Shown here piece by piece: positions 4,929-23,255 of a DNA stretch of 23,841 bases (position 1 is the stretch's first letter; each line of letters opens with the position of its first letter). Location: NCBI GenBank assembly GCA_020061125.1, contig JAGUYV010000235.1, positions 1-23,841 of the forward strand, in the 5' to 3' direction. This stretch comes from a bacterium. GTDB taxonomy: Bacteria > UBP15 > UBA6099 > DSWB01. The notes under the pieces are model-generated. The model was not told where the DNA came from, did no database searches, and saw only the letters and a program-made list of their open reading frames with translations. A program made the translations under genes and the position numbers.

Positions 4929-5828
4929 TTGCGTCCCAAAAACACTACTAAAACAATCGTGACCCTTGCCGTCATCGCGGCGCTGGGCGCCATGATTGGC
5001 GCCGTGCGGCTGTATTCGCAGTCCAGCGGCGGCGGAGCCGAATACATCGGTTCCGCTCAATGCCTGGCATGCCACGAGAACATTGACACCCAGCTCATGG
5101 CCACCAAACATTCCATTCTGTTCCAGAAGGAAGGCCCCGAGGACAAGCAGGGTTGCGAAGCGTGCCATGGCCCGGGCAGTGAACACATGTCCGAAGCGCC
5201 CGAGGGCATCATCCGCTTCAACGGCGCATCCAAAGCCGCCGAGAGCGCCGCGTGCCTCAAATGCCACGCCGACGGCGACAAGGCCGAATGGAAAATGAGC
5301 ATCCACGCCTCCGAGGACATGTCCTGCGCGGATTGCCACAGCCCCCACGGCAAGGTCAAGGAGCGCTCCGAGCGCGAGAAACGGGAGATCGAAACCCTTC
5401 TCGTTGACAGCGAAGCGGACCTGTGCCTGGACTGCCATCAGGAAAAACGCGGCGAGTTCAGCAAGCCATCGCACATGCCCGTGCTCGAAGGCCAGATGGG
5501 CTGCTCCGACTGCCACAGCCCGCACAACAACTCGCCCCTCCAGATGGAGCGCGCGGCCGCGTCCTGCGTTTCCTGCCACGCGGAAAAATCCGGGCCCTTC
5601 CTCACCGAGCACGAACCGGTCGCCGAGTCCTGCCTCAACTGCCACGACCCGCACGGGTCCGTGAACCAGAATCTTCTCACGCAACGGCAGCCTACGCTGT
5701 GCCTCCAGTGCCACGCCAACACCTCGGTGATTCACCGGTCCAATTCCACCCAGTACAAGACCTGCACGAACTGCCACAAGGCCGTTCACGGCTCCAGGCT
5801 GAATGCGGACAACAATCTGTTCAACTGA
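4929..5828 (+). CDS. DmsE/MtrA-family decaheme c-type cytochrome
   Basis: This 299-residue periplasmic cytochrome has ten CXXCH motifs, at about residues 45, 76, 109, 133, 166, 192, 213, 235, 258 and 279. The CxxCHSPHG/CxxCHDPHG pattern that recurs in the MtrA/DmsE family is visible at hemes 4, 6 and 8. The start is TTG 4929, eight bases after a perfect AAGGAGG (4914-4920); it gives an N-terminal signal of about 30 residues. In characterised metal-reducing systems this family sits inside an outer-membrane barrel as a heme wire. The next gene encodes such a barrel, so the same role is inferred. Length is slightly below that of Shewanella MtrA, but the heme number is the same. Confidence 0.93.
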   Translation: MRPKNTTKTIVTLAVIAALGAMIGAVRLYSQSSGGGAEYIGSAQCLACHENIDTQLMATKHSILFQKEGPEDKQGCEACHGPGSEHMSEAPEGIIRFNGASKAAESAACLKCHADGDKAEWKMSIHASEDMSCADCHSPHGKVKERSEREKREIETLLVDSEADLCLDCHQEKRGEFSKPSHMPVLEGQMGCSDCHSPHNNSPLQMERAAASCVSCHAEKSGPFLTEHEPVAESCLNCHDPHGSVNQNLLTQRQPTLCLQCHANTSVIHRSNSTQYKTCTNCHKAVHGSRLNADNNLFN

Positions 5829-5867
5829 TACGCCATGACAAGAGACGATTCCAAGGGAGTTATGACC

Positions 5868-7511
5868 ATGGAGAAAAGAATCAGGACAAAAATGATGGGG
5901 GCGGCGGCCGCGCTGTTCGCCCTGATCATTGCGTGCGCCGCGCCCGCGCGATCCGAAATTACGGGCGAAGCCGGCGTCATGCTTCGCGGCACGGACCAGA
6001 CCCAGAGCCTGCTCCACATCGGCCGCGAACACAATATGCTGCCAAGGGACGCATCCGTATCCTTCCTCTCGCTGAATATGCCCCTGTTCCACAAACAGGG
6101 CGGCTATTTCCGCATGCTGGGAACCAACCTGGGCGAGGGCGATGTGTACAGCGCGATTCAGTTCGCGTTCAACCGAAACCTCACCGGGCAGGGCGGGTAT
6201 GTGAAAACCCCGCATGTCATCAATCTCGCCAGCGGATACCACACTTACAGGGACGCCGAAAATCTGCGCCTCAACCTGTATCCCCTGGGCAAAATCCGGG
6301 CTTCGTTCGCTTACAGCAACGAAGATAAAACGGGCCGCCTCGGAACCACGAACTTCGTGGGCCAGAAAACCCGCGACATGAGCCTGGGCGTGAGCGGCAA
6401 GCTGCGCAACGCCGTGGTTTCATTCGGCATAGACGACCGCGAACTCAAGCACAGCACCCTGGCGCACGAGATGGACGGCGTGTCCGTGACCGTGACGCTC
6501 AACCCCGCCAACACCAAGCGGTTCTACGGGCAGGCGTCTTACGCCATGCGCGAGTTCGACAGCAGCATGACCAACACGGCCACCAACACCGTGGAGATTA
6601 AAAACACGGACTTGAGCGCCATGTATGCGCTGCGCAAAAATGTCATGCTTATGACCGGGCTGTCCATGAAAGAGCGCAGCAGCAGCCGCACTATCGAGTC
6701 TCTGTCCTATGACGATGACGCTTTCAGCTTCGGCGTCAGAATCCGCAGCCGCATCGGCCGCCTGGGCGTGAACTACAAAAAATCCGACCGGGACTATTCC
6801 GGCGGGTGCGTGGCCAGCGGCGGATGCGTGAGCAGCCGCGGCACGGAAACCTTCTCGATCAAGGGTTCCTCGAAACTGTCGTTCCTGGGCCTCAACGCGC
6901 AGTACGAGCACTCCAACCGCGATGTCACGGGCGGCGCTTCGTCCACCAACTTCTCGCACATGGCCGGGGAATTCATCAAGCAGAATTATTCGGTGAACCT
7001 GCTCGGTTTCAAGAAGTTCTCCACGGTTCTTTACAACACCAACAACAAAGACAACTACGATCGCAAGGCGCTGTACGGCACCTCCGCCAACCGCGTTGTG
7101 ATCACCGGCGTGTCCACGGTGTACATGGCCGAGCCGAACCTGGACTTCACGCTGGACCTTTCGAGCGTGGAAACCCGCATGACCGGGCGCCAGGCCATGG
7201 AAGCGCAGCAGTGGGACTACAGCCTTGGCGTGGACGCGGACACCAAGTATTTCAGCCTTGGCTCCCGCTACTACTTCGAGCCGGGATCCATGCTGTCGTT
7301 CGGCTACTCCACCGCGGCCTCGGGCCTGGTTGACATTCAGGGAAGCAACCAGGTGCGCGAGCGCTCCGTGAGCGTGAATCTCGAAAAGAATATGGGCGCC
7401 AAGCATTCGCTCAACGCCGGGATCTCCCGCACCTACTTCTCGGACCAGTTGAACAGCGACATCTCCGGCAAGAGCACCTTGTACGAATTTGAAATCCTGC
7501 GCAAGTTCTGA
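5868..7511 (+). CDS. MtrB/PioB-like outer-membrane beta-barrel of a porin-cytochrome conduit
   Basis: This 547-residue protein has a signal peptide of about 28 residues, then alternating polar/hydrophobic strands throughout, ending in Phe as outer-membrane barrels do. The ATG at 5868 is chosen because AAGGGAG (5853-5859) is eight bases upstream; ATGs at 5835 and 5862 are in frame but poorly spaced. It lies 39 bases after the decaheme cytochrome gene and before an octaheme lipoprotein, the classic order-mates of MtrB-type sheaths. The family call rests on context, length and strand pattern rather than a signature motif. I see no N-terminal CXXC of the kind described in Shewanella MtrB. The only cysteines noted in the mature region are C314 and C320, close together and probably in a loop. 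Confidence 0.78.
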   Translation: MEKRIRTKMMGAAAALFALIIACAAPARSEITGEAGVMLRGTDQTQSLLHIGREHNMLPRDASVSFLSLNMPLFHKQGGYFRMLGTNLGEGDVYSAIQFAFNRNLTGQGGYVKTPHVINLASGYHTYRDAENLRLNLYPLGKIRASFAYSNEDKTGRLGTTNFVGQKTRDMSLGVSGKLRNAVVSFGIDDRELKHSTLAHEMDGVSVTVTLNPANTKRFYGQASYAMREFDSSMTNTATNTVEIKNTDLSAMYALRKNVMLMTGLSMKERSSSRTIESLSYDDDAFSFGVRIRSRIGRLGVNYKKSDRDYSGGCVASGGCVSSRGTETFSIKGSSKLSFLGLNAQYEHSNRDVTGGASSTNFSHMAGEFIKQNYSVNLLGFKKFSTVLYNTNNKDNYDRKALYGTSANRVVITGVSTVYMAEPNLDFTLDLSSVETRMTGRQAMEAQQWDYSLGVDADTKYFSLGSRYYFEPGSMLSFGYSTAASGLVDIQGSNQVRERSVSVNLEKNMGAKHSLNAGISRTYFSDQLNSDISGKSTLYEFEILRKF

Positions 7512-7570
7512 AAGCGCGAACAGCTTTGACCATAAACAAAATCACCACGATCGGGTGGAGGGAGAAACAA

Positions 7571-8953
7571 ATGAAGAAAAAGAATCACCTCATGAACATC
7601 ATGGCCGTCGTGCTCATGGCGATGATCGGGCTTGTTCTCAAGGGCTGCGGCGGCGGAGGCACAAGCAATGTGCTTGCGCCAACGAACAACACGGCAGCAT
7701 CCACGGTCACTTACACGGACACGCTGCCCTCGGCCATGGAAGCCAAGGCCGCCGCGGACATCACCACATTCGACACGGAAGCGCCCACGGCATTCTATGA
7801 CGGCACGACCATCGCCACATCCGGCGCCACGACCCAGGCCATCACCGCCTGCAACAGTTGCCACGCAAGGACGCAGTATGTGCCGTTTCTCAACACAAGG
7901 CACTACAACAACAATGTCACCTGCGAAAGCTGTCACGGCGTGTCCAGCCTGCACACCGTGGGCGGGGGCGACAAAAACAAAATCATCGCCGCATGGCAGG
8001 CGTTGAGCGCCAGCACATGCGCGAACTGCCATTCCTCATACTACGATGAATGGGAAAAATCCGGCCACTCCACCGCCAAGCACGCGGCGCACGGCAGCAG
8101 CGGATGCACCCCCTGCCACACGGGCGAGGGATTCATCGAATACGCGGGCTGGAGTAAAACCAACAACAACGACGACCTCATGTACTTCCTCGGAGAATCC
8201 GGGGCCAAGACCGTGACCGGAGCGGAGACCGAGGGCAACGGCGCGCACAATGTGAACTGCGGCGCCTGCCACAGCCCGCACGAAACCGGTTACGCCGGCC
8301 AGTTGCGCCTGGACAAATCCGCCCTGTGCATTTCCTGCCACGAGGGCCGCAAGAAACTGCCCGGCGACAGCCGCGCCCCGCACCACAACCTCCAGGGCCG
8401 CGTGCTCCTCGGCCAGGGCATCGTCAACACCAGCCACGAAATGCTCTGGGACCGCGCGGGCTTCCTTTGCGGCAGCAACGAGGAAACCAGCTCCGCCGCA
8501 TGCGGAACCTCGAACACCTACACCACGATTTCCACGACTGTGAATCCCATCATGGGCCCGGCCACAACCTGCACGGACTGCCACATGTACTCCAGCGCCA
8601 CCGCGGGCAAAGGCCACACTTTCAAGCCCAACTCTGAAAAGTGCAAAACCTGCCACACCGGCATGAGCCCGGCGGCCGTGATTTCCAACATCCAGAGCAA
8701 CTACGACGCCCTGTATAATCCCATGAAGGCGCGCCTGGACGCAGCCGTCGCGGGCCTGGGTATGCAAATCGGCTCCACGGGTTTGGTAACGAACGCCGCG
8801 GATTACACCGAAGCGCAACTCAAGGCTTATTATGAAGCCTCCTGGAATTTGAACTACATTGACTACGACGGCAGCAAGGGCGTGCACAACTTCACTCTGG
8901 TGGAGAAAGCCATGGAGTACACGGACGCCATGCTCACGAGCCTCGGTTATTGA
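7571..8953 (+). CDS. Octaheme c-type cytochrome, predicted surface lipoprotein
   Basis: This 460-residue protein starts at ATG 7571, following GGAGGGAG. It has a lipoprotein signal with the lipidated Cys at residue 26, then a Gly/Thr/Ala-rich linker to about residue 90. Eight CXXCH motifs begin at about 94, 118, 150, 179, 230, 253, 334 and 358. Two further cysteines at 300 and 311 could form a disulfide. The C-terminal 90 residues are helical and heme-free, with a GVHN motif like that in C-terminal helices of nitrite-reductase-type cytochromes. As third gene of the porin-cytochrome operon it is placed as the extracellular partner, like MtrC/OmcA or Geobacter OmcB by position. I recognise no sequence similarity to those proteins. 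Surface exposure is inferred. Confidence 0.85.
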   Translation: MKKKNHLMNIMAVVLMAMIGLVLKGCGGGGTSNVLAPTNNTAASTVTYTDTLPSAMEAKAAADITTFDTEAPTAFYDGTTIATSGATTQAITACNSCHARTQYVPFLNTRHYNNNVTCESCHGVSSLHTVGGGDKNKIIAAWQALSASTCANCHSSYYDEWEKSGHSTAKHAAHGSSGCTPCHTGEGFIEYAGWSKTNNNDDLMYFLGESGAKTVTGAETEGNGAHNVNCGACHSPHETGYAGQLRLDKSALCISCHEGRKKLPGDSRAPHHNLQGRVLLGQGIVNTSHEMLWDRAGFLCGSNEETSSAACGTSNTYTTISTTVNPIMGPATTCTDCHMYSSATAGKGHTFKPNSEKCKTCHTGMSPAAVISNIQSNYDALYNPMKARLDAAVAGLGMQIGSTGLVTNAADYTEAQLKAYYEASWNLNYIDYDGSKGVHNFTLVEKAMEYTDAMLTSLGY

Positions 8954-9031: not shown

Positions 9032-9061
9032 GCCCGCGGGCGTATGGCCCGCGGGCCTCTT
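9032..9061 (+). terminator. GC-rich hairpin terminator after the porin-cytochrome operon
   Basis: GCCCGCGGGC (9032-9041) pairs perfectly with GCCCGCGGGC (9047-9056) around a five-base loop. CTCTTT follows. The 10-bp, all-G/C stem is very stable; the T-run is short. It lies 78 bases after the octaheme gene stop. Confidence 0.65.
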
Positions 9062-9111: not shown

Positions 9112-9144
9112 GATGGAGTGACGCTCTCACTCCATCATCTTTTT
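9112..9144 (+). terminator. Rho-independent terminator
   Basis: GATGGAGTGA (9112-9121) and TCACTCCATC (9127-9136) form a perfect 10-bp stem with a five-base loop. It is followed three bases later by TTTTT (9140-9144). This is the most canonical terminator in the window. With the hairpin at 9032 it isolates the porin-cytochrome operon from the quinol-oxidase operon. Confidence 0.75.
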
Positions 9145-9247: not shown

Positions 9248-9658
9248 ATGAAAAGAATCTCGAAGACCGTTGCGGCCGCATTCGCGTTCGCCACATTTGC
9301 GGGCGCAGCCGTGTTGCTCGGCGCCGGCAAGGCGGATTCCCACGAAAAAATGCTCCTCAAGCCCAAGGCCGAGTTCTGCTACATGTGCCACGCGGACAAG
9401 AAAGCCGTGTACATGAAATCCGGCCACGGAAAGTTCGATGTCACTTGCGACATGTGCCACAACTCGCACGGCTCGGGCAACAAGTCCATGCTGCTCAAGC
9501 CGGGGCAGGACATGTGCTACGCGTGCCATTCCGATGTCAAGGATCACTTCAACAAATCCGAGCACGGCGCTGCGGGCATCACCTGCAACATGTGCCACGA
9601 CCCGCACGGCACGCCGGACGCCGAGCCGGCCAAGCAGGCCCCTCCGGCCAAAAAATAA
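9248..9658 (+). CDS. Small periplasmic tetraheme c-type cytochrome (paired CXXCH repeats)
   Basis: This 136-residue protein starts at ATG 9248, directly after a purine-rich GGAGGGAACGGAG. A signal peptide of about 30 residues precedes CYMCH (44), CDMCH (67), CYACH (90) and CNMCH (113). The mature protein is a clean internal duplication: each half has LLKP, a first heme, a SGHG or SEHG, and a second heme followed by a HNSHG or HDPHG-type stretch. That is the doubled-CXXCH layout. As first gene of the Rieske/cytochrome b operon it is well placed to take electrons from the Rieske protein, the role of cytochrome f or c1, or to shuttle to the later cytochromes (inference). The Pro/Ala/Lys-rich tail is probably disordered. 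Confidence 0.88.
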   Translation: MKRISKTVAAAFAFATFAGAAVLLGAGKADSHEKMLLKPKAEFCYMCHADKKAVYMKSGHGKFDVTCDMCHNSHGSGNKSMLLKPGQDMCYACHSDVKDHFNKSEHGAAGITCNMCHDPHGTPDAEPAKQAPPAKK

Positions 9659-9684: not shown

Positions 9685-10137
9685 ATGGAGCAAGACACAC
9701 GGAAATCAACGGGTGTGCGGCGCCGCACTTTCCTTGACACGCTGCTGCGCGGCTGGGTTCTGGCCGGCGTGGCGGGCATGGCGTATCCGGTGGCCAAATA
9801 CCTCACGCCGCCGCACGCGCCGGAAGCCGCGGAAAAGGAAGTGGAAGCCGCCGCCGCGGATCAGGTCAAGCCGGGCGAAGCCGTGAAATTCGAATTCCAC
9901 GGCACGCCCGCGCTGCTCATGAATGTGAAAACCGGATTCGTGGCCGTGAGCGCGGTTTGCACGCACCTCGGATGCATCGTGGACTGGGACGCCGGAAAAT
10001 CACAGGTCGTGTGTCCGTGCCACAACGCGATTTTCGATTACAACGGCAACATCGTGTCCGGACCCGCGCCCCTGCCGCTCGAACGCTTCGAGGTGGATGT
10101 GCGCGACAACAAGGTCATGGTCCGCAGAAAGGGGTAA
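9685..10137 (+). CDS. Rieske iron-sulfur protein of a bc-type quinol oxidase complex
   Basis: This 150-residue protein has an N-terminal RRRTFLDTLL stretch followed by one hydrophobic anchor at about residues 22-40; this resembles a Tat signal-anchor. Rieske motif CTHLGC is at 92-97 and CPCHNAIF at 110-117. C92, H94, C110 and H113 should bind the [2Fe-2S] cluster, and C97-C112 form the usual disulfide. GPAPLPL follows, as is common in this family. Start ATG 9685 follows GGAG. The cluster should accept one electron from menaquinol at the Qo site of the adjacent cytochrome b and hand it to a cytochrome c. It is comparable to petC/qcrA. Only two bases separate its stop from the cytochrome b start. 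Confidence 0.95.
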   Translation: MEQDTRKSTGVRRRTFLDTLLRGWVLAGVAGMAYPVAKYLTPPHAPEAAEKEVEAAAADQVKPGEAVKFEFHGTPALLMNVKTGFVAVSAVCTHLGCIVDWDAGKSQVVCPCHNAIFDYNGNIVSGPAPLPLERFEVDVRDNKVMVRRKG

Positions 10138-10139
10138 CC

Positions 10140-10886
10140 GTGCCAGAAGAAGTTAACGGGAAAACTCCCCGGCGGAAGGAAAACAGCATCACGGCGCAGT
10201 TGCGAGGCATCTGGCGGCGCATCAGCCTCGAGGCCGTAGGCGCCGTGGTGTACGGCGGCGTGGACCGCCGCCTGGAACTGTCCGACGCCATCGAGCACGC
10301 GCTCAAGCACAAAGTGCCGCGGCATGTGAATTGGACATATTGCTTCGGCGGCATCACCTTCTTTCTGTTTCTGGTGCTCGCAGCCACGGGCATCCTGCTC
10401 ACACTGTACTACAGGCCGTCTTCCTCGGACGCCTATGAGAGCGTGAAGTACATCATGAACGATGTGCGCTTCGGATGGCTGATCCGCAGCATCCACCACT
10501 GGGCCGCCAACCTCATGGCCTTCACCGTTCTGGCGCACATGGTTCGCGTGTATTTCCACGGCGCGTACAAGCACCCTCGCGAGCTGAACTGGATAGCGGG
10601 CGTTTTCCTTCTCGCGCTCACCCTGGCATTCGGATTCACCGGCTACTTGCTGCCCTGGGACCAGAAAGCCTACTGGGGCACCACCGTGGGCACGCGCATG
10701 CCCGCGGCCATGCCGTTTATCGGCGATTTCATGAAGCTCTTTCTGCGCGGAGGCGACGAAGTCACAGGCCGCACGCTCTCGCGCTTCTACAGCCTGCATG
10801 TCGTCATCCTGCCCATGGTCACGACCTTCTTCCTCGCCGCGCACTTCGCGATGATCCGCAGGCAGGGAATATCCAAACCCATGTGA
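10140..10886 (+). CDS. Cytochrome b6-type subunit of the quinol:cytochrome c oxidoreductase
   Basis: This 248-residue protein starts at GTG 10140, after AAGGGG. It closely follows the cytochrome b6 pattern: VNWTYCFGGIT near 63-73, YYRPSSSDAYESVKYIM, FGWLIRSIHHW, FTGYLLPWDQKAYW, FYSLHVV and MIRRQGIS. Four membrane helices are expected. Heme b ligands are a His of the 119/120 pair, H133, H220 and H235. Cys68 occupies the position of the cysteine that covalently holds the extra heme ci (cn) in plastid, cyanobacterial and Firmicutes b6-type proteins. The C-terminal half of a mitochondrial-type cytochrome b is absent and supplied by the next gene. The protein oxidises quinol at the Qo site and recycles one electron through its hemes. 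Confidence 0.93.
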   Translation: MPEEVNGKTPRRKENSITAQLRGIWRRISLEAVGAVVYGGVDRRLELSDAIEHALKHKVPRHVNWTYCFGGITFFLFLVLAATGILLTLYYRPSSSDAYESVKYIMNDVRFGWLIRSIHHWAANLMAFTVLAHMVRVYFHGAYKHPRELNWIAGVFLLALTLAFGFTGYLLPWDQKAYWGTTVGTRMPAAMPFIGDFMKLFLRGGDEVTGRTLSRFYSLHVVILPMVTTFFLAAHFAMIRRQGISKPM

Positions 10887-10914: not shown

Positions 10915-11394
10915 GTGACTGAACAGGACAAAAAGCAACCGCAGCTTCAAGATGAAGAGTCTGGCGGCATTCCGTTCTATCCGCTGCACTTCATGAAGGA
11001 AGTCATGGTCGTGACAGCCGTGCTGCTCGTCATCCTTGCGCTGTCCATTTTCTTCCCGGCCGGTCTTCAAGAGGCCGCGGACAGTTTCAGCACGCCCGAG
11101 CACATCAAGCCCGAATGGGTATTTTTAGCCATGTATCAGTTGCTCAAGTATGTGCCCCAGGGCGTGGCGTTCGGCAATGTCACCTATCTGAATCTGTTCG
11201 TGGCCGCCACCGGGATTCTCGGGCTGGCAGTGGCCGCACTGCCGTTCCTGGACCGCTCGCCTCACACCATGGCTCGAAAGCGCCCCCTGTTTCTGGCGCT
11301 CGGCCTGCTGGCGCTTGCGCTCTTTGTCGTCTTTACCTATCTCGGGCATTTTTCAGGGGCGCGGGATCCCATCTTCGGGATGCTGATTCCATGA
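10915..11394 (+). CDS. Subunit IV-like C-terminal half of split cytochrome b
   Basis: This 159-residue protein has three membrane helices, at about 28-48, 90-112 and 124-146. It contains HIKPEWVFLAMYQLLKYVP around residues 63-81, which aligns with the conserved subunit IV segment holding the Qo-site PEWY motif. Here the motif reads PEWV (66-69): the glutamate is kept and the tyrosine replaced. Start GTG 10915 follows AGGAG at a proper distance, 28 bases after the cytochrome b6 stop. Together with the preceding gene it forms a split cytochrome b as in b6f complexes. Its last bases include an in-frame ATG (11391) for the following cytochrome gene, so the two may be translationally coupled. Confidence 0.9.
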   Translation: MTEQDKKQPQLQDEESGGIPFYPLHFMKEVMVVTAVLLVILALSIFFPAGLQEAADSFSTPEHIKPEWVFLAMYQLLKYVPQGVAFGNVTYLNLFVAATGILGLAVAALPFLDRSPHTMARKRPLFLALGLLALALFVVFTYLGHFSGARDPIFGMLIP

Positions 11395-11432
11395 ACACAC
11401 GCATGCCCCTGCCTGTCAAGGACGGATTTGTT

Positions 11433-12704
11433 ATGAAACGATTTCCGGAAGCGCGCCCGGCGGCGCTTTGCCTGGCGCGCGTTCTGCTCCTGCTCTGCAC
11501 TTTCGCATCAGCCTCCCACGCCCGGATCGTCCGGTTCGAAGAAGGGTCCACCTGCCATGTTTGCCATGGCAAGGAAACCGTCACGCACGCGGGCAGCGTT
11601 CACGGCCGGTTTGATGTGTCGTGCGTGGACTGCCACGGCGGTGACGACACGCAGATTCTGTGGACCGCGGCCATGAACCCCGCGGCCGGATTCCAGGGCC
11701 GGTTCGGCCCCGAGGAAACCCTGTCCATGTGCGCGGGATGCCATAGCGATTATGAAAAGATGCGCCAGTTCGGCCTGCCCGTGGACCAGCTTATTCAGTA
11801 CAAGTCGAGCGAGCACGGCAAGGCGCTGTTCCAGACCGGCAACAAGTCCGTGGCCGTGTGCACAAGCTGCCACGGGATTCACGACATCCTCGAAGTCAAA
11901 AATCCCCGGGCCAGCGTGTATCCCACGAATGCGCCGGACATGTGCGCGGGCTGCCATGAGAACAGGAAGCTCATGAAGCCCCTTGGAGTCAGCGCCACAG
12001 TGGTTGCCGATTACAGGAAGGGGCAGCACGGGCGCAGGCTCCTTGAAAAGGATCTGGCCGCGCCCTCGTGCCCCACATGCCACGGGGCGCACAGCGCCGC
12101 GCCGCCGGGCGTGGCCGAGGTGGTCAATGTGTGCGGCCAGTGCCACGGCAACATCCGGGACCAGTTCAAGCGCAGCGTTCACTACCGCGAGCGCCTGGAG
12201 TGCATCTCGTGCCACGGAAGCCACAACAATGAACCTCCGTCCACGGCCATGTTCACGAGCGCCAGGCCCGGCGGGTGCCGCAACTGCCACACCGAGCCGG
12301 AATCCCGCGCAGCCGTATTTATCAGGGACACTTTGTCCCATTTGAGCAAAGCCCGCAAAGACCTGTCCGCCGCGGAAAAGGCCGCGGAGCGCGCTGCGCG
12401 CGAGGGATTCTATGTCGAGAGCGAGCAGGTGCTTCTCAAGGAAGCGCATACCGCGCTCATGGAATTCCGCAACACGCAACATTCGCTCGACATGCCCGAC
12501 ACAGACGCGCAACTCGCCACGGTCTCGTCCAAGGCGTCCCATGTCATGGACAACATCAAGGCCAAGAATGAGCGCATCATTGACCGGCGCATCGTAATGG
12601 TTGCCGTGGCGGGATACATGCTCGCGCTGCTGCTGATGCTGTTCATCAAGTACCGGAGGCTCAAGAAAGCCCATTCGGAGGCTCAAGCGCAGCACGATGC
12701 CTGA
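11433..12704 (+). CDS. Membrane-anchored nonaheme c-type cytochrome
   Basis: This 423-residue protein has nine CXXCH motifs (about 41, 64, 100, 143, 171, 213, 234, 257 and 282). A long heme-free helical segment (about 290-385, rich in Ala/Glu/Lys) follows, then one membrane helix at 388-406 and a basic cytoplasmic tail. ATG 11433 is preferred because AAGGA lies ten bases upstream and it gives a standard signal peptide cleaved near residue 30. ATG 11391, overlapping the previous stop as ATGA, would add 14 residues. The heme part faces the periplasm, tethered at its C-terminus. Its place directly after the Rieske/b genes suggests it carries electrons away from that complex. Motifs such as the YRKGQHGRRL stretch ahead of heme 6 are also seen in the undecaheme fusion protein downstream. 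Confidence 0.88.
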   Translation: MKRFPEARPAALCLARVLLLLCTFASASHARIVRFEEGSTCHVCHGKETVTHAGSVHGRFDVSCVDCHGGDDTQILWTAAMNPAAGFQGRFGPEETLSMCAGCHSDYEKMRQFGLPVDQLIQYKSSEHGKALFQTGNKSVAVCTSCHGIHDILEVKNPRASVYPTNAPDMCAGCHENRKLMKPLGVSATVVADYRKGQHGRRLLEKDLAAPSCPTCHGAHSAAPPGVAEVVNVCGQCHGNIRDQFKRSVHYRERLECISCHGSHNNEPPSTAMFTSARPGGCRNCHTEPESRAAVFIRDTLSHLSKARKDLSAAEKAAERAAREGFYVESEQVLLKEAHTALMEFRNTQHSLDMPDTDAQLATVSSKASHVMDNIKAKNERIIDRRIVMVAVAGYMLALLLMLFIKYRRLKKAHSEAQAQHDA

Positions 12705-15109: not shown

Positions 15110-17299
15110 ATGCGAATTATTGCCGTAAAACATGGATTGTCACAGCGACGGTGCGCCGTCCGCTCTGCGCAGCACGCGCTGTTCGCGTGCGCGCTTGTTT
15201 GGGCCGCGCTTTGCGCGTGCGGCACGCACACGCAAGCGGCCATGCTCAACGAACCCCTGCACCAGGGCCTGCGCTACGAGGATTCCGAGTGCCTCATGTG
15301 CCACAGCGCCACTGTGACCGGCGAACGATCCGGGCGCACTTATGAACCCGTGGATCCGGATTCTCTCAAGCATTCCGTGCATAAGGAAATCCATTGCGTG
15401 CAGTGCCACAAGGGCGCGCGCCTCTCGAAGGATCGCAGCCACATGACCGCCATCACCATGGTCGAGTGCAAGGACTGCCACTACAAAGGCAACGACATCG
15501 GCGCCCCCCAGAAAGATGTTGCCGAAGAATACATGCAGGGCGTTCACGGACAGTCCGTTCTCAAGGACAAAGCCTCAAAAGCGCCCCGCTGCTGGGACTG
15601 CCACACTGGCCATTCCATCAAAAAAGTGTCCGGCGGCAAGAAGTCCGTAAACCGCGACCGCGTGGTCAAGGTCTGCAAGAACTGCCATTACGATTCCAAA
15701 ATCATGGGCAAATATAAACTGCGCACGGCTTTCATCGCCCAGTATGACAACACCCCGCACGCCAGGGCGCGCCAGAAGGGAAACGACAAGGCCGCAATCT
15801 GCACCGATTGCCACGGCAACCACAACATCAAAAAGCGCGATGACCCCGGCAACCCTCTGAAGCCCGCCCATGTGCCGGAAACCTGCGCAAAGTGCCACAA
15901 GGATGTTTCGGAGGTTTACAAAAAGAGCATCCACGGAAAGGGCTGGCTTGAGGGCGTCAAGGATGCGCCCGTATGCACCACATGCCACGGCGAGCATGAG
16001 ATCCGCTATGTAAAAAACCCGGACGCCACCGTGTATCCCACGCATGTGGTGTCTCTGTGCGAAGACTGTCATTCGAACATATCCATCCAGCGCGAATACG
16101 GACTGCGCAACACTGTGGAGACTTACAAGAAGTCCTACCACGGCATTGTGAACAGGCTGGGCCGCGATGTGCAGGTGGCCAATTGCGCAAGCTGCCACGG
16201 CCACCATGACATCCTGCCATCAACAGATAAAAATTCCCGGGTGAACGCCGCCAATCTGGGCAAAACCTGCGGCAATTGCCACGAGCCGGCCATGCTGAAC
16301 AGCAACATCGGCAAAATCCATGTGGCCGCCGAACCCGGAAGCTCCCTCATTCTGTTCTACATTAAGTGGATCTATATCGTCATGATTACCGGATCCATCG
16401 GGGGCATGCTGTTCTATATTTTCACGGACCTGTTCGGTTTCGTCACGCGCCGCCGCAGGCATATTCTCGAACGCATAAGGCGCAAAGAGCAGGAATCCGA
16501 TGACAGCGCGTTCCATGACCCCGCCGGGGAGCACGGGCATGCGGATCCGGACCTTCCCGACGACATGGAAGTCGAGCGCTGGCCCCGCGCCTACCGCATC
16601 CAGCACCTGCTGCTGATCACTTCCTTCACCATGCTCGTGCTCACGGGAATGCCCCTCGTGTTCCCGGACCTGTCCATTTTCCGTCTCATCGCGCGCAACG
16701 AATTCCTCTATGAACTGCGCGGCATTACGCACCGCGCGTTCGGATTCCTCATGATCGCGCTGTGCGCCTACCATGTGCTGTTCGTGGCCGCCAACCGGGC
16801 GGCGCGCCGCGACATCCTCAACATGATTCCAAAACCCCGCGACGCACGCGACGCCTTCCAGGCCGTGCTATACAACCTCAACCTGCGCCGCGAACACCCG
16901 CACATGCCGCGCTACAATTTCATCGAAAAATTCGAGTATCTGGCCATGGCTTGGGGCAGCTTCGTGATGATCGCCACGGGCCTGGTTCTCACCTTCAACA
17001 GTTTCTTCCTCCAGTACATTCCATGGATCGGATTCGACATCGCAACCCTGGTGCACAAATTCGAAGCCATTCTCGCCACGCTCGCCATTCTGATCTGGCA
17101 CATGTACACCGTGCACCTCACTCCGGATTTCTTCCCTATGAACAAAGTGTTCTTCAACGGGAAGATATCCCTGGGCAATCTTCGCAAGCACCACGGCGAG
17201 GAATATGAGCAGGTGGCCGAAGAACTCAAACGGCGGACCGCAGGAACCGTGGAGAACGATACGGATGTGCGGAACGGAAACGGAGGCGGCGATTCGTGA
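15110..17299 (+). CDS. CbcL-like fusion: undecaheme cytochrome c plus diheme cytochrome b domain
   Basis: This 729-residue protein has a signal peptide (about 1-43), then 11 CXXCH motifs between residues 61 and 391. A first membrane helix is at about 412-436, followed by a charged loop (448-495). A b561/hydrogenase-b-type domain of about four helices comes next (495-670), with candidate heme b ligands H499, H541, H555, H649 and H664. The architecture is that of Geobacter CbcL, an inner-membrane menaquinol oxidase, but with 11 c hemes rather than the nine I recall for CbcL. ATG 15110 is chosen because it puts the signal peptide at the N-terminus; ATG 15047 would add 21 residues, and neither has a strong ribosome-binding site. 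The tail reads into the next gene with a GTGA overlap. Confidence 0.9.
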   Translation: MRIIAVKHGLSQRRCAVRSAQHALFACALVWAALCACGTHTQAAMLNEPLHQGLRYEDSECLMCHSATVTGERSGRTYEPVDPDSLKHSVHKEIHCVQCHKGARLSKDRSHMTAITMVECKDCHYKGNDIGAPQKDVAEEYMQGVHGQSVLKDKASKAPRCWDCHTGHSIKKVSGGKKSVNRDRVVKVCKNCHYDSKIMGKYKLRTAFIAQYDNTPHARARQKGNDKAAICTDCHGNHNIKKRDDPGNPLKPAHVPETCAKCHKDVSEVYKKSIHGKGWLEGVKDAPVCTTCHGEHEIRYVKNPDATVYPTHVVSLCEDCHSNISIQREYGLRNTVETYKKSYHGIVNRLGRDVQVANCASCHGHHDILPSTDKNSRVNAANLGKTCGNCHEPAMLNSNIGKIHVAAEPGSSLILFYIKWIYIVMITGSIGGMLFYIFTDLFGFVTRRRRHILERIRRKEQESDDSAFHDPAGEHGHADPDLPDDMEVERWPRAYRIQHLLLITSFTMLVLTGMPLVFPDLSIFRLIARNEFLYELRGITHRAFGFLMIALCAYHVLFVAANRAARRDILNMIPKPRDARDAFQAVLYNLNLRREHPHMPRYNFIEKFEYLAMAWGSFVMIATGLVLTFNSFFLQYIPWIGFDIATLVHKFEAILATLAILIWHMYTVHLTPDFFPMNKVFFNGKISLGNLRKHHGEEYEQVAEELKRRTAGTVENDTDVRNGNGGGDS

Positions 17300-19191
17300 A
17301 GCTCCTCAAGCGTTCTCTGAAAATCATTGCCGCGCTCGCGCTGGTTCTTGCCGTGCTCGCGTGCATCCAGTTCTTTTTCCGTCAGGAGAAATTTATTTTC
17401 GCGTGCCGCGCATGCCATGAAATGCGCACGCACAAAACCAATTTGAGCTTCGCCAGGCACGAAGGCGTGGACTGCGTCAAGTGCCATGTGCTGGAATCCG
17501 TGTACGACATGGCGGTGATCAAGTATTTCAAACCGGAAAAGAAATACAAAAACATCACCGTGGCCGACGCCCGGTGCTCTGCCTGCCACCCGGACATCAA
17601 GGACCAGACGGTTTTTTACCACGATGTGCCGTTTTCCCACACCGCGCATCTCGAAGCGGGTGAGCATTGCTCCAAGTGCCACCGCAGTTTCGTGCACCGC
17701 AAGAGCCGGACCTCGCCTCTGATCAGCCTTCGCCAGTGCCGCGACTGCCACGAGAAAAAACGCAGAACGCACACGCCCCCGACCACCATCCGCGACCTGG
17801 GCGAACTTGAAAAGCAGCCCCACGACGACGGCTGGTATGTGGACCACAAGAATATCAAAAAAGCCGAGGAGAAATCCTGCGCCGAATGCCACCACAAGGA
17901 TTTCTGCACCGCGTGCCACGACAACTACAAGGACCATGTGGACAACTGGTGGGCCAACCACTACCAGGAAGCCATGATCCGGTTGCCCGAGTGCCAGATC
18001 TGCCACAGGCCCGATTACTGCATCTCGTGCCACAAGCAGCGCATTCCAACCACGCACCGCACAAAAGAGTGGGGCATGAACCACTGGACCGGCATCAACC
18101 TGGTGGAGTGCAACACCTGCCATACGCTGAATTTCTGCAAATCATGCCACACGCGCAATCAACCCAAATCGCACGCAACCATCAAGGACCATGCGGGCAT
18201 GAAACCTTCCATGGAACCCACATGCGATGTGTGCCACCAGAAGAATTCCTGTTCCTCGTGCCACCACTCGGAGACCCAGGGCGCGGCCTGCGGCTCGTGC
18301 CACGAGAAAGCCGCATCCAGCACTGTGAAAACAGCACAGGGAACCATGTCTCACGAGCGCCACACGGGGCAGGGCGGCGTGCTGTGCACGGAGTGCCACC
18401 GCAACGCACCCGAGCCGGGCAGGTTCCAGACCCGAAACGACTGCATGGCCTGCCACCACAGCCCCGAGCGCAAGTCCTGCCTCTCGTGCCACAGCGGCAT
18501 CTTCGACACCGTGGTGCGCGTGAACAACCGCAGCTTCTCGCACAAGCGCCACACAGGCCCCGCGGACCTTACATGTACGACATGCCACCGCGCCGACGGA
18601 ACGGGCCGTTTCACAAACGAGCAGGGCTGCTCCTCATGCCATCACAGCAAACAGCAGAGAAAGACCTGCTACGCATGCCACGGGGACATCCTGAAAAAGA
18701 CCGTGTCGTCCAGCAACAAGAAATTCTCGCACGATTCCCATGTGAACACGCATGGGGTGCCGTGCCACAAGTGCCATGTTTTCGCAAACACCAGAACCGG
18801 GCTGCGCAACGCTTATGACTGCAACTCCTGCCACCACAATCAGGCCGGAGGCAATTGCAAGAGCTGCCACCCGGTGCAGCAGCGCGAAACGGCAAAGAGT
18901 TCCATGGATTACGAGTGCGAATTCTGCCACAAAATTGACGGCCCCAATTTCAGCGACCCGCGCGGAAACTGCCGCAGTTGCCACGCTCTGGCTTATTCCC
19001 AGGAAGTGCAGGCGCACGGCGCCAAATCGTGCGACACATGCCACCCGCCGCATTCCTGGGCCTATGGCAAGGGAACGCCCTGCGTGAAATGCCACGCAAA
19101 GCCCGAGGCCATGCACAAGCGCGACATCAAGGGGATGAAATGCACCGACTGCCACGAGCCGCACATCTGGCGCGCGGCGCCGCCAAGATGA
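17296..19191 (+). CDS. 28-heme membrane-anchored c-type cytochrome
   Basis: This 631-residue protein has 28 CXXCH motifs, about one per 22 residues. GTG 17296 overlaps the preceding stop (GTGA). An uncleaved N-terminal helix (about 8-28) precedes a NapC-like opening with CRACH at 37 and CVKCH at 60. Four double-heme modules CXXCHx4CXXCH follow at 195, 233, 272 and 310. Then come three triheme modules starting SHxxH at 352, 415 and 478, a period of exactly 63. A C-terminal cap (541-625) clearly matches that of the 27-heme protein, with shared patterns CxFCH, DP...C, HGA(K/R)SC, HSW and CHxPH(I/V)W. The two giants are therefore paralogues across their C-terminal halves. It is last gene of the operon and its cap lies farthest from the anchor. 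A trans-periplasmic wire is an inference. Confidence 0.9.
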   Translation: MKLLKRSLKIIAALALVLAVLACIQFFFRQEKFIFACRACHEMRTHKTNLSFARHEGVDCVKCHVLESVYDMAVIKYFKPEKKYKNITVADARCSACHPDIKDQTVFYHDVPFSHTAHLEAGEHCSKCHRSFVHRKSRTSPLISLRQCRDCHEKKRRTHTPPTTIRDLGELEKQPHDDGWYVDHKNIKKAEEKSCAECHHKDFCTACHDNYKDHVDNWWANHYQEAMIRLPECQICHRPDYCISCHKQRIPTTHRTKEWGMNHWTGINLVECNTCHTLNFCKSCHTRNQPKSHATIKDHAGMKPSMEPTCDVCHQKNSCSSCHHSETQGAACGSCHEKAASSTVKTAQGTMSHERHTGQGGVLCTECHRNAPEPGRFQTRNDCMACHHSPERKSCLSCHSGIFDTVVRVNNRSFSHKRHTGPADLTCTTCHRADGTGRFTNEQGCSSCHHSKQQRKTCYACHGDILKKTVSSSNKKFSHDSHVNTHGVPCHKCHVFANTRTGLRNAYDCNSCHHNQAGGNCKSCHPVQQRETAKSSMDYECEFCHKIDGPNFSDPRGNCRSCHALAYSQEVQAHGAKSCDTCHPPHSWAYGKGTPCVKCHAKPEAMHKRDIKGMKCTDCHEPHIWRAAPPR

Positions 19192-19286: not shown

Positions 19287-19369
19287 TTAGTAGATCTATG
19301 GGATTTTGTGTAAGCAATCCAAAATGCGGATTCATTGATATAAACAAAACACAACGCAAGGAGGAAAAC

Positions 19370-19945
19370 ATGAGCAGAAAAATCTTCATCGCAGCCCTGG
19401 CCCTGTGTCTGGCTCTGGCTGTGTCGGGCGTGCGCCTGATCTCGGCCGAAGACGCCAAGGAAGAGAAAAAGCTCGAGTTCAAGGGCGCCAAGCAGTGCAT
19501 CAACTGCCACAAGGATCTGGATAATTCCGTAGAGGTCTGGCAGAAGGAAATGCACGCCAAGGCGTATGAAACCCTGGGTACGGATGCGGCCAAGGCGTTC
19601 AGCAAGGATCCGCAGAACGATCCCGCTTGCCTCAAGTGCCACACCACCGGCTACGGGCAGCCAGGAGGCTTCGACCTCAAGCTCGAAGACAAGAAGAAGG
19701 AAGCGCTTGCGGGCGTGACCTGTGAGTCCTGCCACGGACCCGGCGAGAAGTACAACACGGTCATGATGCAGGCCAAGATGAAGGGCAACTACTCGACCGA
19801 GGCAGCGGCCGAAGCCGGACTTCTGGTTCCGGATGAAAAGACCTGCCTCACCTGCCACAACGAGGAAAGCCCCACCTTCAAGGAATTCGATTACGAAAAG
19901 ATGGTTGCAAAAATCAAGCACGGCGAAAAGCTCGAAACCAAGTAA
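19370..19945 (+). CDS. Cytochrome c554-like tetraheme c-type cytochrome
   Basis: This 191-residue protein starts at ATG 19370, after a strong AAGGAGG. A signal peptide (about 1-26) is followed by CINCH (43), CLKCH (87), CESCH (118) and CLTCH (159). The spacing, the KQCINCHK...VWQKEMHAKAYETL stretch around the first heme and the CESCHGPGEKY motif at the third fit the cytochrome c554 family. In ammonia oxidisers that family takes electrons from hydroxylamine oxidoreductase, but homologues are widespread in metal and sulfur reducers. No such enzyme is encoded here, so it is best read as a soluble periplasmic shuttle. It is flanked by a 178-base gap and a strong hairpin, so it is probably expressed separately, perhaps at high level. 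Confidence 0.88.
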   Translation: MSRKIFIAALALCLALAVSGVRLISAEDAKEEKKLEFKGAKQCINCHKDLDNSVEVWQKEMHAKAYETLGTDAAKAFSKDPQNDPACLKCHTTGYGQPGGFDLKLEDKKKEALAGVTCESCHGPGEKYNTVMMQAKMKGNYSTEAAAEAGLLVPDEKTCLTCHNEESPTFKEFDYEKMVAKIKHGEKLETK

Positions 19946-19973
19946 TTCGCGCCGCGCTTACAGTGTGGAAATC

Positions 19974-20002
19974 CCGGATGGCGGACCCGTTCCGCCATCC
20001 GG
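19974..20002 (+). terminator. Strong hairpin after the c554-like gene
   Basis: CCGGATGGCGGA (19974-19985) pairs perfectly with TCCGCCATCCGG (19991-20002) around loop CCCGT. This is a 12-bp stem. Only a weak T-rich stretch (TTGCATTAT) follows. It could terminate the cytochrome transcript fully or partly, or protect its 3' end, before the thioredoxin-like gene. Confidence 0.55.
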
Positions 20003-20056
20003 TTGCATTATCCGGGGCGCTTCGATGCGCGCCCCTTTGATGTTGGGAGACGCCTT

Positions 20057-20491
20057 ATGAAATTTACCCTGATGCGCATGATGGCGCTGCTGTTTGTGGC
20101 CGCATTCTCCGCGGCCTGCATTTATGTGCCCCGGGCCATCGAAGCCGCGGAACAGAGAAAAACGGAACAGACGCTGGATTCCGTGTTCGGCGCGCGGCCC
20201 GTGGTGCTCCAGTACACATCCCCGGACTGTTCCACATGCAAAGCCATGAAGCCCGTGGTCAAAAAACTCAAGCAGGATTACAAAGGCCGCATAGATTTCG
20301 TGGAGGTTTCCGTGGAATCGGCCACGGCTCAAACGCTTCAGGAGATGTTCCCGCCCGAGTACCTTCCTTCGTTTTTCCTGCTCCATGACCGGGACACCGT
20401 ATACACCCGCGTGGAAGGCGAAGTCTCGGACGAGCATTTCCGCGCCATGCTGGACGACATGCTGAACGCGCCCAAAAACATGGTGAACTGA
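20057..20491 (+). CDS. Thioredoxin-like protein, possible apocytochrome c thiol reductant
   Basis: This 144-residue protein starts at ATG 20057, seven bases after GGGAG. A hydrophobic N-terminus (about 8-25) suggests export; SAAC at 18-21 is a poor lipobox but lipidation cannot be excluded. The thioredoxin fold is shown by TSPDCSTCKAMKP with active-site CSTC at 58-61, and by a cis-Pro motif YLPSFF at 102-107. It lies 70 bases before a CcmF heme lyase. In System I cytochrome c maturation, an exported thioredoxin (CcmG/CcmH pathway) keeps CXXCH cysteines reduced before heme attachment, and that is the most likely role here. It lacks the usual CcmG WCxPC sequence, so the exact assignment is open. 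Confidence 0.75.
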   Translation: MKFTLMRMMALLFVAAFSAACIYVPRAIEAAEQRKTEQTLDSVFGARPVVLQYTSPDCSTCKAMKPVVKKLKQDYKGRIDFVEVSVESATAQTLQEMFPPEYLPSFFLLHDRDTVYTRVEGEVSDEHFRAMLDDMLNAPKNMVN

Positions 20492-20561
20492 TAGCGCGCG
20501 AGGCATGGTTATTCGTCGTCCGCAATCCGGACCATTCATCTGAACGAGAGAGGAATTATTC

Positions 20562-23255
20562 ATGGCCATACTTCAATACGCCCCCCTGTGCCTGGCGATC
20601 CTTGTCTTCGGGTACTATCTTTTCGATCCCGATGAAAAGCGGCAGCGGTTTGGTGCGGTTCTGCGCTGGGCCACGGTCCTGGCCTCCACGGCCATGGTGA
20701 TCCGGCTCTTCGCGCTCTTCCTGGGCCGCCGCTACGAGTTCGCCTATGTGTTCGAGAATTCGAGCCAGGATCTGGAATTCATTTACCGGTTCTCCGCGGT
20801 GTGGGCCGGGCAGGCGGGCACCTTCCTGCTGTGGTACTGGTTCACGGCCCTGCTTCTCGTGTTCATGGTGCGGCCGCAGGACATGCGCAATCAGGTCTGG
20901 TGCGCCGTGGGTTTCGTGCTGGTTCTCATCGGCGTGTTTCTGGCCATCGAGTCCCCTTTCGCGCTTGTGTCCCGAGAAGAACTTGAAACGCTCCGCTCAC
21001 AAATGGCGCGCGGCATGCTGGCGCCCGGATTCTTAAATTCCGCAGGTCTGCCCGCGGACGGCCAGGGGCTGAACCCCATTCTAAAAAACCCGTGGATGGC
21101 CATTCATCCTCCCCTGATCTTCATTGGCTACGGACTGGCTGCGGCGCCGTTCGCCCTGGCTGCGGCCGCAGTCGCCAAAAGGCAAATCAACTCCTGGGCG
21201 CATCCGGCGCGCATCTGGTCGGCGCTGGCGTGGGCGTTTCTGGGCGCGGGGATTTTCTGCGGCAGTTACTGGGCGTACATCATCCTGGGCTGGGGCGGAT
21301 ACTGGGGCTGGGACCCTGTGGAGAACGCATCGCTTCTCCCCTGGATCGCGCTCGCGGCACTGTCCCACGGCCTCATCATCCAGGGCGGCGGCAAGCGGTT
21401 CTCATCCTGGAACCTGCTGCTCGCATTCGTTCCCCTGGCCATGGTTTTTGTCACAACCTTCCTCACGCGCAGCGGCGCGCTGGCCGAGTTCTCGGTGCAT
21501 TCCTTCCAGAAGAGCCTGCTTTTTTATCCCATCGCCATGACCCTGGCCGCGGTGTGCGCCGTGAGTCTGGGGCTGTGGATATTCGCCCTTGGCGCGCGCA
21601 TCGCCACGAACCGCGCGGACAGCGCCCCGAAATGGGGGCACAGGCTCCTGTCATGGACAATCGTGCTCATGATCATGCTTCTGGGTTTCGTGATGCTCGG
21701 CACCCTGTTCCCGCTACTGTCCGGAATTCCGGTGATCCGGAGTCTGCCCATGATCTCGGGCATGGCCGCGGGCGGGGCGGCCACCGTGGATCAGTCGTAC
21801 TACAACAAGACCACTTTTTTCAGCATGTTTCTGATTGGCGGCATTCTGATCGCCTGTCCGTTCCTGTTTGTGCGGGCGGCCAGGGGCGCGGCCGGGCGCG
21901 CGCGCACGATTGCCGGAACACTGGGCGCAATCGCTGGCGCAGCGCTGCTTGCAGCCTCGGCGCCCAAGGCCTCGTCCGGCACGATTCTGGTTTTGAGTTA
22001 CGCGCTCGCGCTTATGGCGGGCGCAACAGCCGCCATCAACATCGCCAATGTCCTGCACTTCTACAGGCTTAAAAACTGGAGTCTGGGAGGGTATACGGTT
22101 CACGCGGGGGTAGGGCTTCTCACTCTCGGCGTGCTCACCACCTCGTTCGGTTCCCGCGAACAGCAGGTGAGCCTGTCCACGGGCCAGACGGTCAAGGGCA
22201 AAATCGCGGAAGTCACGCTGACCAATGTCGAGTTTGACGCCAAACACGAACAGGGCATCGCCATTCTGGACATCAGGCGCGGCGCGAAAACGCAGATCGC
22301 GGCCGTGCGCTTCAATGTCGGCGAGACGCGGCGAGCGCCCACGCCCACCATTTTGAGTTCCCTGGCGTCAGACCTGTACATCATTCCCGAAAGCTTCTCC
22401 GCAATGCCGGGCGGCATGCCCGGCGGCGGCATGCCGCAAGCAGCGCCGGGCATGGGCATGATGGACGAACAGGACCTGCCCGAGGGCGACACCGTGACCC
22501 GCACACAGTCCGTGCGCGCGGGACAGGCGGAACTCCTGCTGATCGGGTGGGACCTGGCGTCCGGAGGCATGGAGCAGGGATCTCTGAATGTACAGCTTCA
22601 AATCACGGACGCGAGCGGCCAGCGGCAGATTACAGCGCCCTTCAACGCCATGGGCGGGGCGCAGAACAGCCCGGCCATCACGCTGGACGACGGAACCAAA
22701 GTGCGCGTGCTGCGCATCAATGTGAACAAGCGCCAGCCGGACCAGGAGTTCGCGGTTCTGGAAATCATCGAACCCCAGAGCCGCGCGCCGCGCATGCGCC
22801 CCGGGCGGTACGCGGATCCGTACATCATCCAGGCCTCTTTTTCCGTGGCGCAGGCCCCGGAAGCATCGCCCGAACCCGGACACGAAGGCCACGACCATGA
22901 GGAAATCATGGAATCAGGAGCCGTGCCGGGAAGCCCGGCTCCGGAAACCGCGCCGGATGCGGAACAGGATGTACAGAACCTGCCCCCCGGTCATCCGCCA
23001 ATGCCCGAAGGCATGGACGGCATGGGAAGCGGCATGCCCGGTGGAATGCAAGGCATGGGTGATATGGGCGGCATGGGAGGCGCGATGCCTCCGGGCCATC
23101 CGCCTGCTGGCATGGGCGGCATGGGCGGCGCCGTGCAGGTGCGCATCCTCACCAAACCATTCGTCGTGCTTCTGTGGCTCGGAATGCTTCTCATCACCGC
23201 AGGCGCAGCGGCCGCATCGCTCCGGGGACGCGGCAAGTCCAAAGCAAACGACTGA
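20562..23255 (+). CDS. ccmF: CcmF/NrfE-family cytochrome c heme lyase with Met/His-rich insert
   Basis: This 897-residue polytopic membrane protein starts at ATG 20562, with GAGAGGA upstream. CcmF hallmarks are present: WAGQAGTFLLW (81-91), NPWMAIHPPL (176-185), the heme-handling WWD stretch WGGYWGWDPVEN (244-255), LTRSGALAEFSVHSF (301-315), and histidines 182, 269, 313 and 514 at likely heme-ligand sites. The enzyme attaches heme to CXXCH cysteines in System I maturation. The family is usually about 600-700 residues. The excess lies in the periplasmic loop before the last helix (866-886). That loop contains a Met/Gly-rich patch (614-634) and a His/Met/Pro/Gly tract (773-856) with Met every three to four residues. 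Other System I genes are not in the window. The gene follows the thioredoxin-like gene and is probably co-transcribed with it. Confidence 0.93.
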   Translation: MAILQYAPLCLAILVFGYYLFDPDEKRQRFGAVLRWATVLASTAMVIRLFALFLGRRYEFAYVFENSSQDLEFIYRFSAVWAGQAGTFLLWYWFTALLLVFMVRPQDMRNQVWCAVGFVLVLIGVFLAIESPFALVSREELETLRSQMARGMLAPGFLNSAGLPADGQGLNPILKNPWMAIHPPLIFIGYGLAAAPFALAAAAVAKRQINSWAHPARIWSALAWAFLGAGIFCGSYWAYIILGWGGYWGWDPVENASLLPWIALAALSHGLIIQGGGKRFSSWNLLLAFVPLAMVFVTTFLTRSGALAEFSVHSFQKSLLFYPIAMTLAAVCAVSLGLWIFALGARIATNRADSAPKWGHRLLSWTIVLMIMLLGFVMLGTLFPLLSGIPVIRSLPMISGMAAGGAATVDQSYYNKTTFFSMFLIGGILIACPFLFVRAARGAAGRARTIAGTLGAIAGAALLAASAPKASSGTILVLSYALALMAGATAAINIANVLHFYRLKNWSLGGYTVHAGVGLLTLGVLTTSFGSREQQVSLSTGQTVKGKIAEVTLTNVEFDAKHEQGIAILDIRRGAKTQIAAVRFNVGETRRAPTPTILSSLASDLYIIPESFSAMPGGMPGGGMPQAAPGMGMMDEQDLPEGDTVTRTQSVRAGQAELLLIGWDLASGGMEQGSLNVQLQITDASGQRQITAPFNAMGGAQNSPAITLDDGTKVRVLRINVNKRQPDQEFAVLEIIEPQSRAPRMRPGRYADPYIIQASFSVAQAPEASPEPGHEGHDHEEIMESGAVPGSPAPETAPDAEQDVQNLPPGHPPMPEGMDGMGSGMPGGMQGMGDMGGMGGAMPPGHPPAGMGGMGGAVQVRILTKPFVVLLWLGMLLITAGAAAASLRGRGKSKAND

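Follow-up and report, generated by a model that had tools for sequence, protein, structure and literature searches.

A multiheme cytochrome locus that combines a b6-type Rieske complex, CbcL- and NapC-type proteins and an MtrA-type conduit candidate

Does the export of electrons to minerals or electrodes pass through a proton-translocating Rieske/cytochrome b complex? This question is raised by a locus on contig JAGUYV010000235.1 of the draft metagenome-assembled genome (MAG) GCA_020061125.1, assigned to a bacterium of the GTDB lineage UBP15; the window is this whole contig of 23,841 nucleotides. Genes for a b6-type Rieske complex with a 9-heme partner (E to H), a CbcL-like protein (J), two giant cytochromes (I and K) and an MtrA-type conduit candidate (A to C) lie here together on one strand (Table 1). 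We conclude that the locus is probably a module for extracellular electron transfer (EET), in which several parallel quinol-oxidising ports stand next to an MtrA-type conduit. Loci in widely separated phyla likewise hold a b6-type complex, the conserved 9-heme partner and CbcL- or ImcH/NapC-type oxidases, often with an MtrA-type conduit, and with such co-location the Rieske route can be tested through co-expression and deletion.

Heme sites and gene layout

Eight cytochrome genes, all on the plus strand, encode 98 CXXCH motifs by direct count (A 10, C 8, D 4, H 9, I 24, J 11, K 28, L 4). Shuffled versions of the proteins contained a mean of 0.01–0.49 CXXCH per protein and never more than 3, so that a chance origin of these motifs is excluded. 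Three variant sites, all of them in protein I, bring the total to about 101 heme sites: CATCK (CXXCK) at amino acid (aa) 52, CX4CH at aa 119 and CX3CH at aa 479. The CATCK site lines up with CXXCHxM, the motif of the first NapC heme, at which His is present in 16 of the 16 alignable homologs, and the homolog alignment has the CX4CH site kept in nearly all sequences and the CX3CH site in some. Given this alignment, 27 hemes are a sound count for I. A preliminary description of this DNA, made from the letters alone, had given 98 motifs plus three variant sites, and these counts are exact; it was likewise right on the order and strand of the genes, on the trio of Rieske, b6 and subunit IV, and on the CbcL-like and CcmF genes.

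Gene content, motifs, protein families and gene order are read from the sequence. The genes are arranged as operon 1 (A-B-C) and operon 2 (D-E-F-G-H-I-J-K), followed by L, which stands alone, and then by M and N. This division into two operons and a single gene, already proposed in the preliminary description, is supported by overlapping gene pairs within operon 2 (G/H, H/I and J/K) and by the hairpins at 9032-9056 and 9112-9136.

Table 1. Features of the window, with positions counted from its first nucleotide.
Feature	Position	Strand	Assignment	Details
Window			One whole contig (C512), 23.8 kb	From draft MAG
A	4929..5828	+	Periplasmic decaheme cytochrome, MtrA/DmsE type	10 CXXCH
B	5868..7511	+	Presumed outer-membrane beta-barrel porin, 547 residues	Signal peptide, no internal transmembrane (TM) helix, C-terminal Phe, between A and C
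C	7571..8953	+	Probable outer-membrane lipoprotein cytochrome	8 CXXCH, lipobox-like start LVLKGC
Hairpin	9032..9056	+	GC-rich hairpin between operons	GCCCGCGGGC-GTATG-GCCCGCGGGC, then CTCTTTC (read directly)
Hairpin	9112..9136	+	Terminator-like hairpin, T-rich tail	10 pairs, ATCTTTTTGT tail
D	9248..9658	+	Small periplasmic tetraheme cytochrome	4 CXXCH, Paired_CXXCH_1
E	9685..10137	+	Rieske [2Fe-2S] subunit	Ligand boxes CTHLGC, CPCHNAIF intact; PF00355
F	10140..10886	+	Cytochrome b6	Four heme-b His and heme-ci Cys kept
G	10915..11394	+	Subunit IV	PF00032
H	11391..12704	+	9-heme cytochrome	C-terminal TM helix
I	12697..15018	+	Giant NapC-anchored cytochrome	24 CXXCH + CXXCK + CX3CH + CX4CH
J	15110..17299	+	CbcL-like protein	11 CXXCH, membrane b561/FdnI domain
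K	17296..19191	+	28-heme cytochrome, NapC-like N-terminus	28 CXXCH
L	19370..19945	+	c554-type tetraheme cytochrome	PF13435
M	20057..20491	+	Periplasmic thioredoxin-like protein	PF00085
N	20562..23255	+	Second CcmF/NrfE-type heme ligase subunit	PF01578, PF16327
PhnD-like	784..1755	+	Periplasmic binding protein, possible sensor input	PF12974
Histidine kinase	1755..3185	+	Histidine kinase	HAMP, HisKA, HATPase_c
Response regulator	3157..4536	+	Sigma-54 response regulator, possible locus regulator	Response_reg, Sigma54_activat, HTH_8
Sensor fragment	1-423	-	Membrane sensor fragment	One CXXCH, cut by contig end

Quinol-reactive modules and the conduit candidate

The E-F-G module has the split b6 and subunit IV, the four b-heme histidines, the heme-ci cysteine and both Rieske ligand boxes of a b6f complex. 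F scores 239 bits against the b6 subunit of b6f (1q90_B) and at most 146 bits against bc1 cytochrome b, and the closest PDB match of E is the Rieske protein of b6f. Two further features of b6f are absent: there is no cytochrome f, H following G in its place, and the motif of the quinol-oxidising (Qo) site in G reads PEWV, with the Qo glutamate intact, where 26 of 26 comparable loci have PEWY. In E, the Ser and Tyr residues that act as potential-raising hydrogen-bond donors are replaced (CPCHNAIF). Loss of these residues in the yeast Rieske protein lowers its potential by ~130 mV for Ser and ~65 mV for Tyr (cited in PMC12954380). Because both donors are absent, E looks like a low-potential Rieske protein, which fits a low-potential quinol as the presumable substrate.

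H probably takes over from cytochrome f/c1 as the partner of b6, and would form a complex with E, F and G. All nine CXXCH motifs of H are invariant across 17 aligned homologs from many phyla. Genomes were scanned with a b6 alignment, which yielded at least 80 loci, and further loci were added to count carriers of H; among the matches listed, the H family adjoins b6 in 31 fetched loci, the b6 open reading frame being broken in some. The libraries searched contain no model specific to this 9-heme family, which can serve as a marker in the search for similar loci. The AlphaFold2 (AF2) model of H (pLDDT 83.7) has a moderate to weak fold match to hydroxylamine oxidoreductase (HAO) and octaheme nitrite reductase (ONR), with a VIA-align Z of ~10, a range where helical proteins can match by arrangement, and a Foldseek search with this model returned nothing with E <0.001.

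Several relatives depart from this layout. The H protein of a Chloroflexi locus (L049:2151-4745) is enlarged to 24 CXXCH. Two Gemmatimonadota loci (L045:17541-19324, minus strand, and L052:9483-11248), which in the tree branch close to the b6 of the window, encode Rieske proteins that have lost all four cluster ligands and retain one Cys per box, as for a disulfide; their Qo motif is gone (SSWIV, STWVP), the b-heme His are kept and a 21-heme NapC-type gene is nearby, which together make up a predicted Rieske-less b6-type complex. Apparent multiheme fusions were observed in an Armatimonadota locus (L112 near 6196), where the b6 reading frame carries 15 CXXCH, and in Chloroflexus (L087:10640-12745), where the subunit IV frame carries 7. 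The window's own genome holds a second set of Rieske, fused b6/IV and 8-heme genes (L148, G000:C45, 530-3826).

J shares the layout of CbcL, MtrH and MtoC, namely an N-terminal multiheme part (3–23 CX2CH across the family) and a C-terminal FdnI/b561-like domain, which is matched by PF01292 with 44.9 bits (cut-off 30.1) and by FdnI (1kqf_C), and five of its His are each conserved in 11 or more of 12 homologs. A crude hydropathy scan gave five C-terminal segments plus the signal; CbcL-type proteins have six TM helices. The N-terminus of I matches PF03264 (NapC/NirT) with 32.4 bits (cut-off 24.1), while K is NapC-like by the motif pattern CXXCHxM...H..V.C..CH alone, with no match to PF03264; the C-terminal halves of the two proteins are paralogous (33% identity, 299 columns). 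Assignment of I and K to the ImcH type was considered and rejected: each has one TM helix and a first site of the form CX2CK or CX2CH, whereas ImcH features three N-terminal TM helices, a CX3CH first site and 5–9 CX2CH (PMC6295460). As E-G, J, I and K are each of a quinol type, the locus contains up to four quinol-reactive modules and not one.

Operon 1 probably encodes an MtrA-type conduit candidate. A matches TIGR03508 with 221.9 bits (cut-off 192.2) and chain A of 6R2Q, the MtrA of the MtrCAB structure, with an E of 4e-41 over aa 38-290, and by these matches it is a full-length MtrA homolog. (The PDB sequence file labels this chain Cystathionine beta-synthase.) For B, the two-residue hydrophobic alternation typifies the protein as barrel-like, with a z of 2.28 against a 95th percentile of 1.59 in non-barrel controls. 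C has 8 hemes and does not match the OmcA/MtrC family (TIGR03507).

From these parts a path of electrons can be proposed. At the first port, quinol oxidised by E-F-G would deliver electrons through the Rieske cluster to the membrane-anchored H instead of to cytochrome f/c1, and a Q cycle could conserve energy. J, as a b561/multiheme oxidase of the CbcL type, would be the second port, and I and K, NapC-type anchors that carry 27 and 28 hemes, the third and fourth. Within the periplasm D and L may act as carriers, or I and K may span it themselves; hemes in such chains are spaced by ~0.8–1 nm, and a protein of 27–28 hemes could reach over ~20 nm, enough to span the periplasm. A, seated in barrel B and joined by the surface lipoprotein C, would move the electrons across the outer membrane, and M and N would help to attach the heme load.

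M would presumably reduce the thiols of heme sites, and N scores 206 bits against TIGR00353, under the cut-off of 569. Because the genome holds a second thioredoxin-CcmF pair (L147, G000:C367, 7350-10824; 45% and 51% identical, CcmF of 1008 aa), M-N appears to be an additional, dedicated pair. In Geobacter, multiheme genes have been noted to adjoin dedicated biogenesis genes (PMC2700814). Directly upstream of the cytochrome genes, the row of PhnD-like, histidine kinase and sigma-54 regulator genes (784-4536) is likely a signalling trio. Both this row and the sensor fragment at 1-423 fall shortly outside 4929-23255, the range of the preliminary description. Kinases beside the clusters of NC10 (L140) and Rokubacteria (L056) each carry one CXXCH; a relationship of the sensor fragment at the contig end to these kinases was rejected, as there is no sequence similarity.

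Rival readings and the host genome

Several results weigh against an EET module. Sequence searches with B found no match in Pfam, NCBIfam or PDB, none to MtrB/PioB (PF11854) even at an E of 1, where the barrel of a related NC10 locus reaches 385.7 bits, and no homologs in 290 genomes, and the AF2 model of B from its single sequence (pLDDT 28.6) is unusable. The outer-membrane conduit of the preliminary description accordingly stands in its MtrA homolog, its gene order and the barrel-like features of B, and falls short in that B matches no MtrB/PioB model. Sigma-54 promoters were sought before the cytochrome operons and none was found at the chosen threshold; the search for upstream motifs common to the operons returned only ribosome-binding-like and chance 10-mers. 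Menaquinone genes (MqnA, MenD, MqnC) gave only matches below the cut-offs in the 79%-complete MAG. In addition, genome G048 has this b6/H/CbcL module next to genes for a molybdopterin oxidoreductase and a membrane protein (L024 1229-5097); therefore the terminal partner varies and the module can serve soluble acceptors. The description had drawn one electron chain from menaquinol to the cell surface. What remains of it is that the b6 complex, the CbcL-type protein, the giant cytochromes and the conduit candidate occur together on one strand: hairpins divide them into at least two transcription units, they make up the several modules named above, menaquinol lacks a biosynthesis gene above cut-off although the Rieske sequence looks low-potential, and the direction of flow is not readable from the sequence.

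Electrons could instead run inwards, from an extracellular donor such as Fe(II), a cathode or a partner cell through A-C to quinone via J and the b6 complex. CbcL/MtrH/MtoC homologs occur in Fe(III) reducers and in Fe(II) oxidisers, with no feature that tells the direction (PMC6295460), and DmsE/MtrA-type decahemes are likewise common to both. We nevertheless regard inward flow as unlikely, given a Rieske protein whose missing Ser and Tyr donors fit the oxidation of a low-potential quinol (effect cited in PMC12954380) and an operon dominated by NapC-type oxidases. Decidedly unlikely, in our judgement, is that operon 2 serves a periplasmic reductase or one for soluble acceptors such as nitrite, selenite or sulfur species, with A-C as a separate system. 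The hairpins do part the two operons, G048 pairs the same module with its molybdopterin oxidoreductase, the Geobacter ext cluster is tied to selenite/tellurite reduction (PMC5877670), and the moderate HAO/ONR-like fold match of H points the same way; yet no reductase is encoded within the 23.8 kb, and NC10, Zixibacteria and G054 too have MtrA-type genes next to the module. Outward EET through parallel ports thus remains the reading we prefer. It may be taken further, to a single physical assembly in which the proton-translocating b6 Rieske complex and H are hard-wired through I and K to the MtrA-type conduit, and in which the CXXCK heme 1 of I is loaded by the dedicated thioredoxin-CcmF pair. 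This proposal we consider speculative and rather doubtful; if true, no diffusing carriers would be needed for electrons to pass through the periplasm, and EET would gain a second energy-conserving site.

The MAG comprises 4.1 Mb in 513 contigs, and a small tree places its RpoB with those of Armatimonadota and Chloroflexota. The b6 gene is present in one of seven genomes of the host phylum, the window's own, and the b6 phylogeny intermingles phyla, as would be expected if the contig were mis-binned or recently acquired, in which case the locus would say little about the host phylum. This is highly improbable, for the tetranucleotide distance between the window and the other contigs of the bin is 0.108, compared with at least 0.246 to other genomes, and the rpoB contig of the bin falls with its phylum. 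The composition match counts as only moderate evidence, because binning itself uses composition and the argument is partly circular.

Relatives and comparison with known systems

Related loci were found in Zixibacteria, Ignavibacteria, Bacteroidota, Rokubacteria, Gemmatimonadota and others; the loci with H cluster in the b6 tree without forming one clade. A CbcL-type gene also lies within the fetched stretch in 11 of the 31 loci with H, among the matches listed. The loci of Ignavibacteria (L066) and Bacteroidota (L060) have the order CbcL-type, ImcH-type, Rieske, b6, H, c554, barrel-like, large multiheme and CcmF, and the NapC slot is taken by an ImcH-type protein (3 TM, CX3CH, six CX2CH) in Ignavibacteria, Bacteroidota, Zixibacteria and Omnitrophota (L060, L063, L066, L070). 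A DmsE-type decaheme accompanies the b6 module in Zixibacteria L070 and in G054 (L025). The ExtP family was discarded as a tag for the b6 complex, as it is unspecific, with matches in 8 of 14 control genomes. A public genome has the same combination: contig METI01000228 of the NC10 bacterium RIFCSPLOWO2_12_FULL_66_18 carries 84 CXXCH over ~25 kb on one strand and has, like the window, b6-IV, the 9-heme H, CbcL-type proteins, here three, NapC-type multihemes, a histidine kinase/sigma-54 regulator and a DmsE decaheme. It differs in its own gene order, smaller NapC-type cytochromes (13- and 16-heme), a true MtrB_PioB porin (385.7 bits) and the lack of CcmF in the stretch. The arrangement, which the preliminary description did not recognise from elsewhere, is therefore not unique, the same combination being present in NC10 and partial versions in many phyla.

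Among described systems, the nearest relative is the Geobacter ext cluster (GSU2937-2930, extKLMNOPQS). A Geobacter bc-type cluster with 5-, 12-, 10- and 2-heme cytochromes was reported in 2010 as uncharacterised and of unknown role (PMC2825233, Butler 2010), and its ext extension was later tied to selenite/tellurite reduction (PMC5877670, Jahan 2018). Both Geobacter and the window combine a Rieske protein, a b6-type cytochrome b and a small membrane subunit with multihemes, which have 10 and 12 hemes in Geobacter and 9, 27 and 28 sites in the window, where CbcL-like and MtrA-type genes are linked in addition. ExtP is among the models nearest to F, yet at 270.5 bits it stays under the NCBIfam cut-off of 290, as does ExtQ with 26.9 bits (cut-off 150), which places the window outside the ext selenite/tellurite operon as these models define it. 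CbcL/MtrH/MtoC genes cluster with mtrAB or mtoAB in other bacteria (PMC6295460, Zhong and Shi 2018), and cymA-mtrABC-mtrH of Rhodoferax ferrireducens resembles the window in having a CbcL-type oxidase and a NapC-type protein beside an MtrA conduit (PMC6295460); the clusters of that paper, in which no Rieske/b6 or giant cytochromes are mentioned, differ from the window, whose B is not an MtrB_PioB protein. By its description, Deferribacter is comparable, with nine cytochrome genes including 28-heme and 10-heme ones plus membrane proteins in a short conserved region, but MtrA, MtrB and CbcL homologs were not found in its genome (PMC6896113). The anammox Rieske/cytochrome b complexes share the replacement of cytochrome f/c1 by a TM-anchored multiheme protein, in one case with a HAO-like domain, and differ in a high-potential Rieske with Ser kept and in other partners (PMC12954380). 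Geobacter employs the quinol oxidases ImcH, CbcL and CbcBA in EET, at differing potentials (PMC12307469), and proteins with far more hemes (86) than those of the window are known (PMC12133095). No paper in the open-licence literature was found to describe all parts in one locus, although precedents cover each pairing. The locus is an unusually large combination of known kinds of parts, and it is more widespread than the preliminary description supposed.

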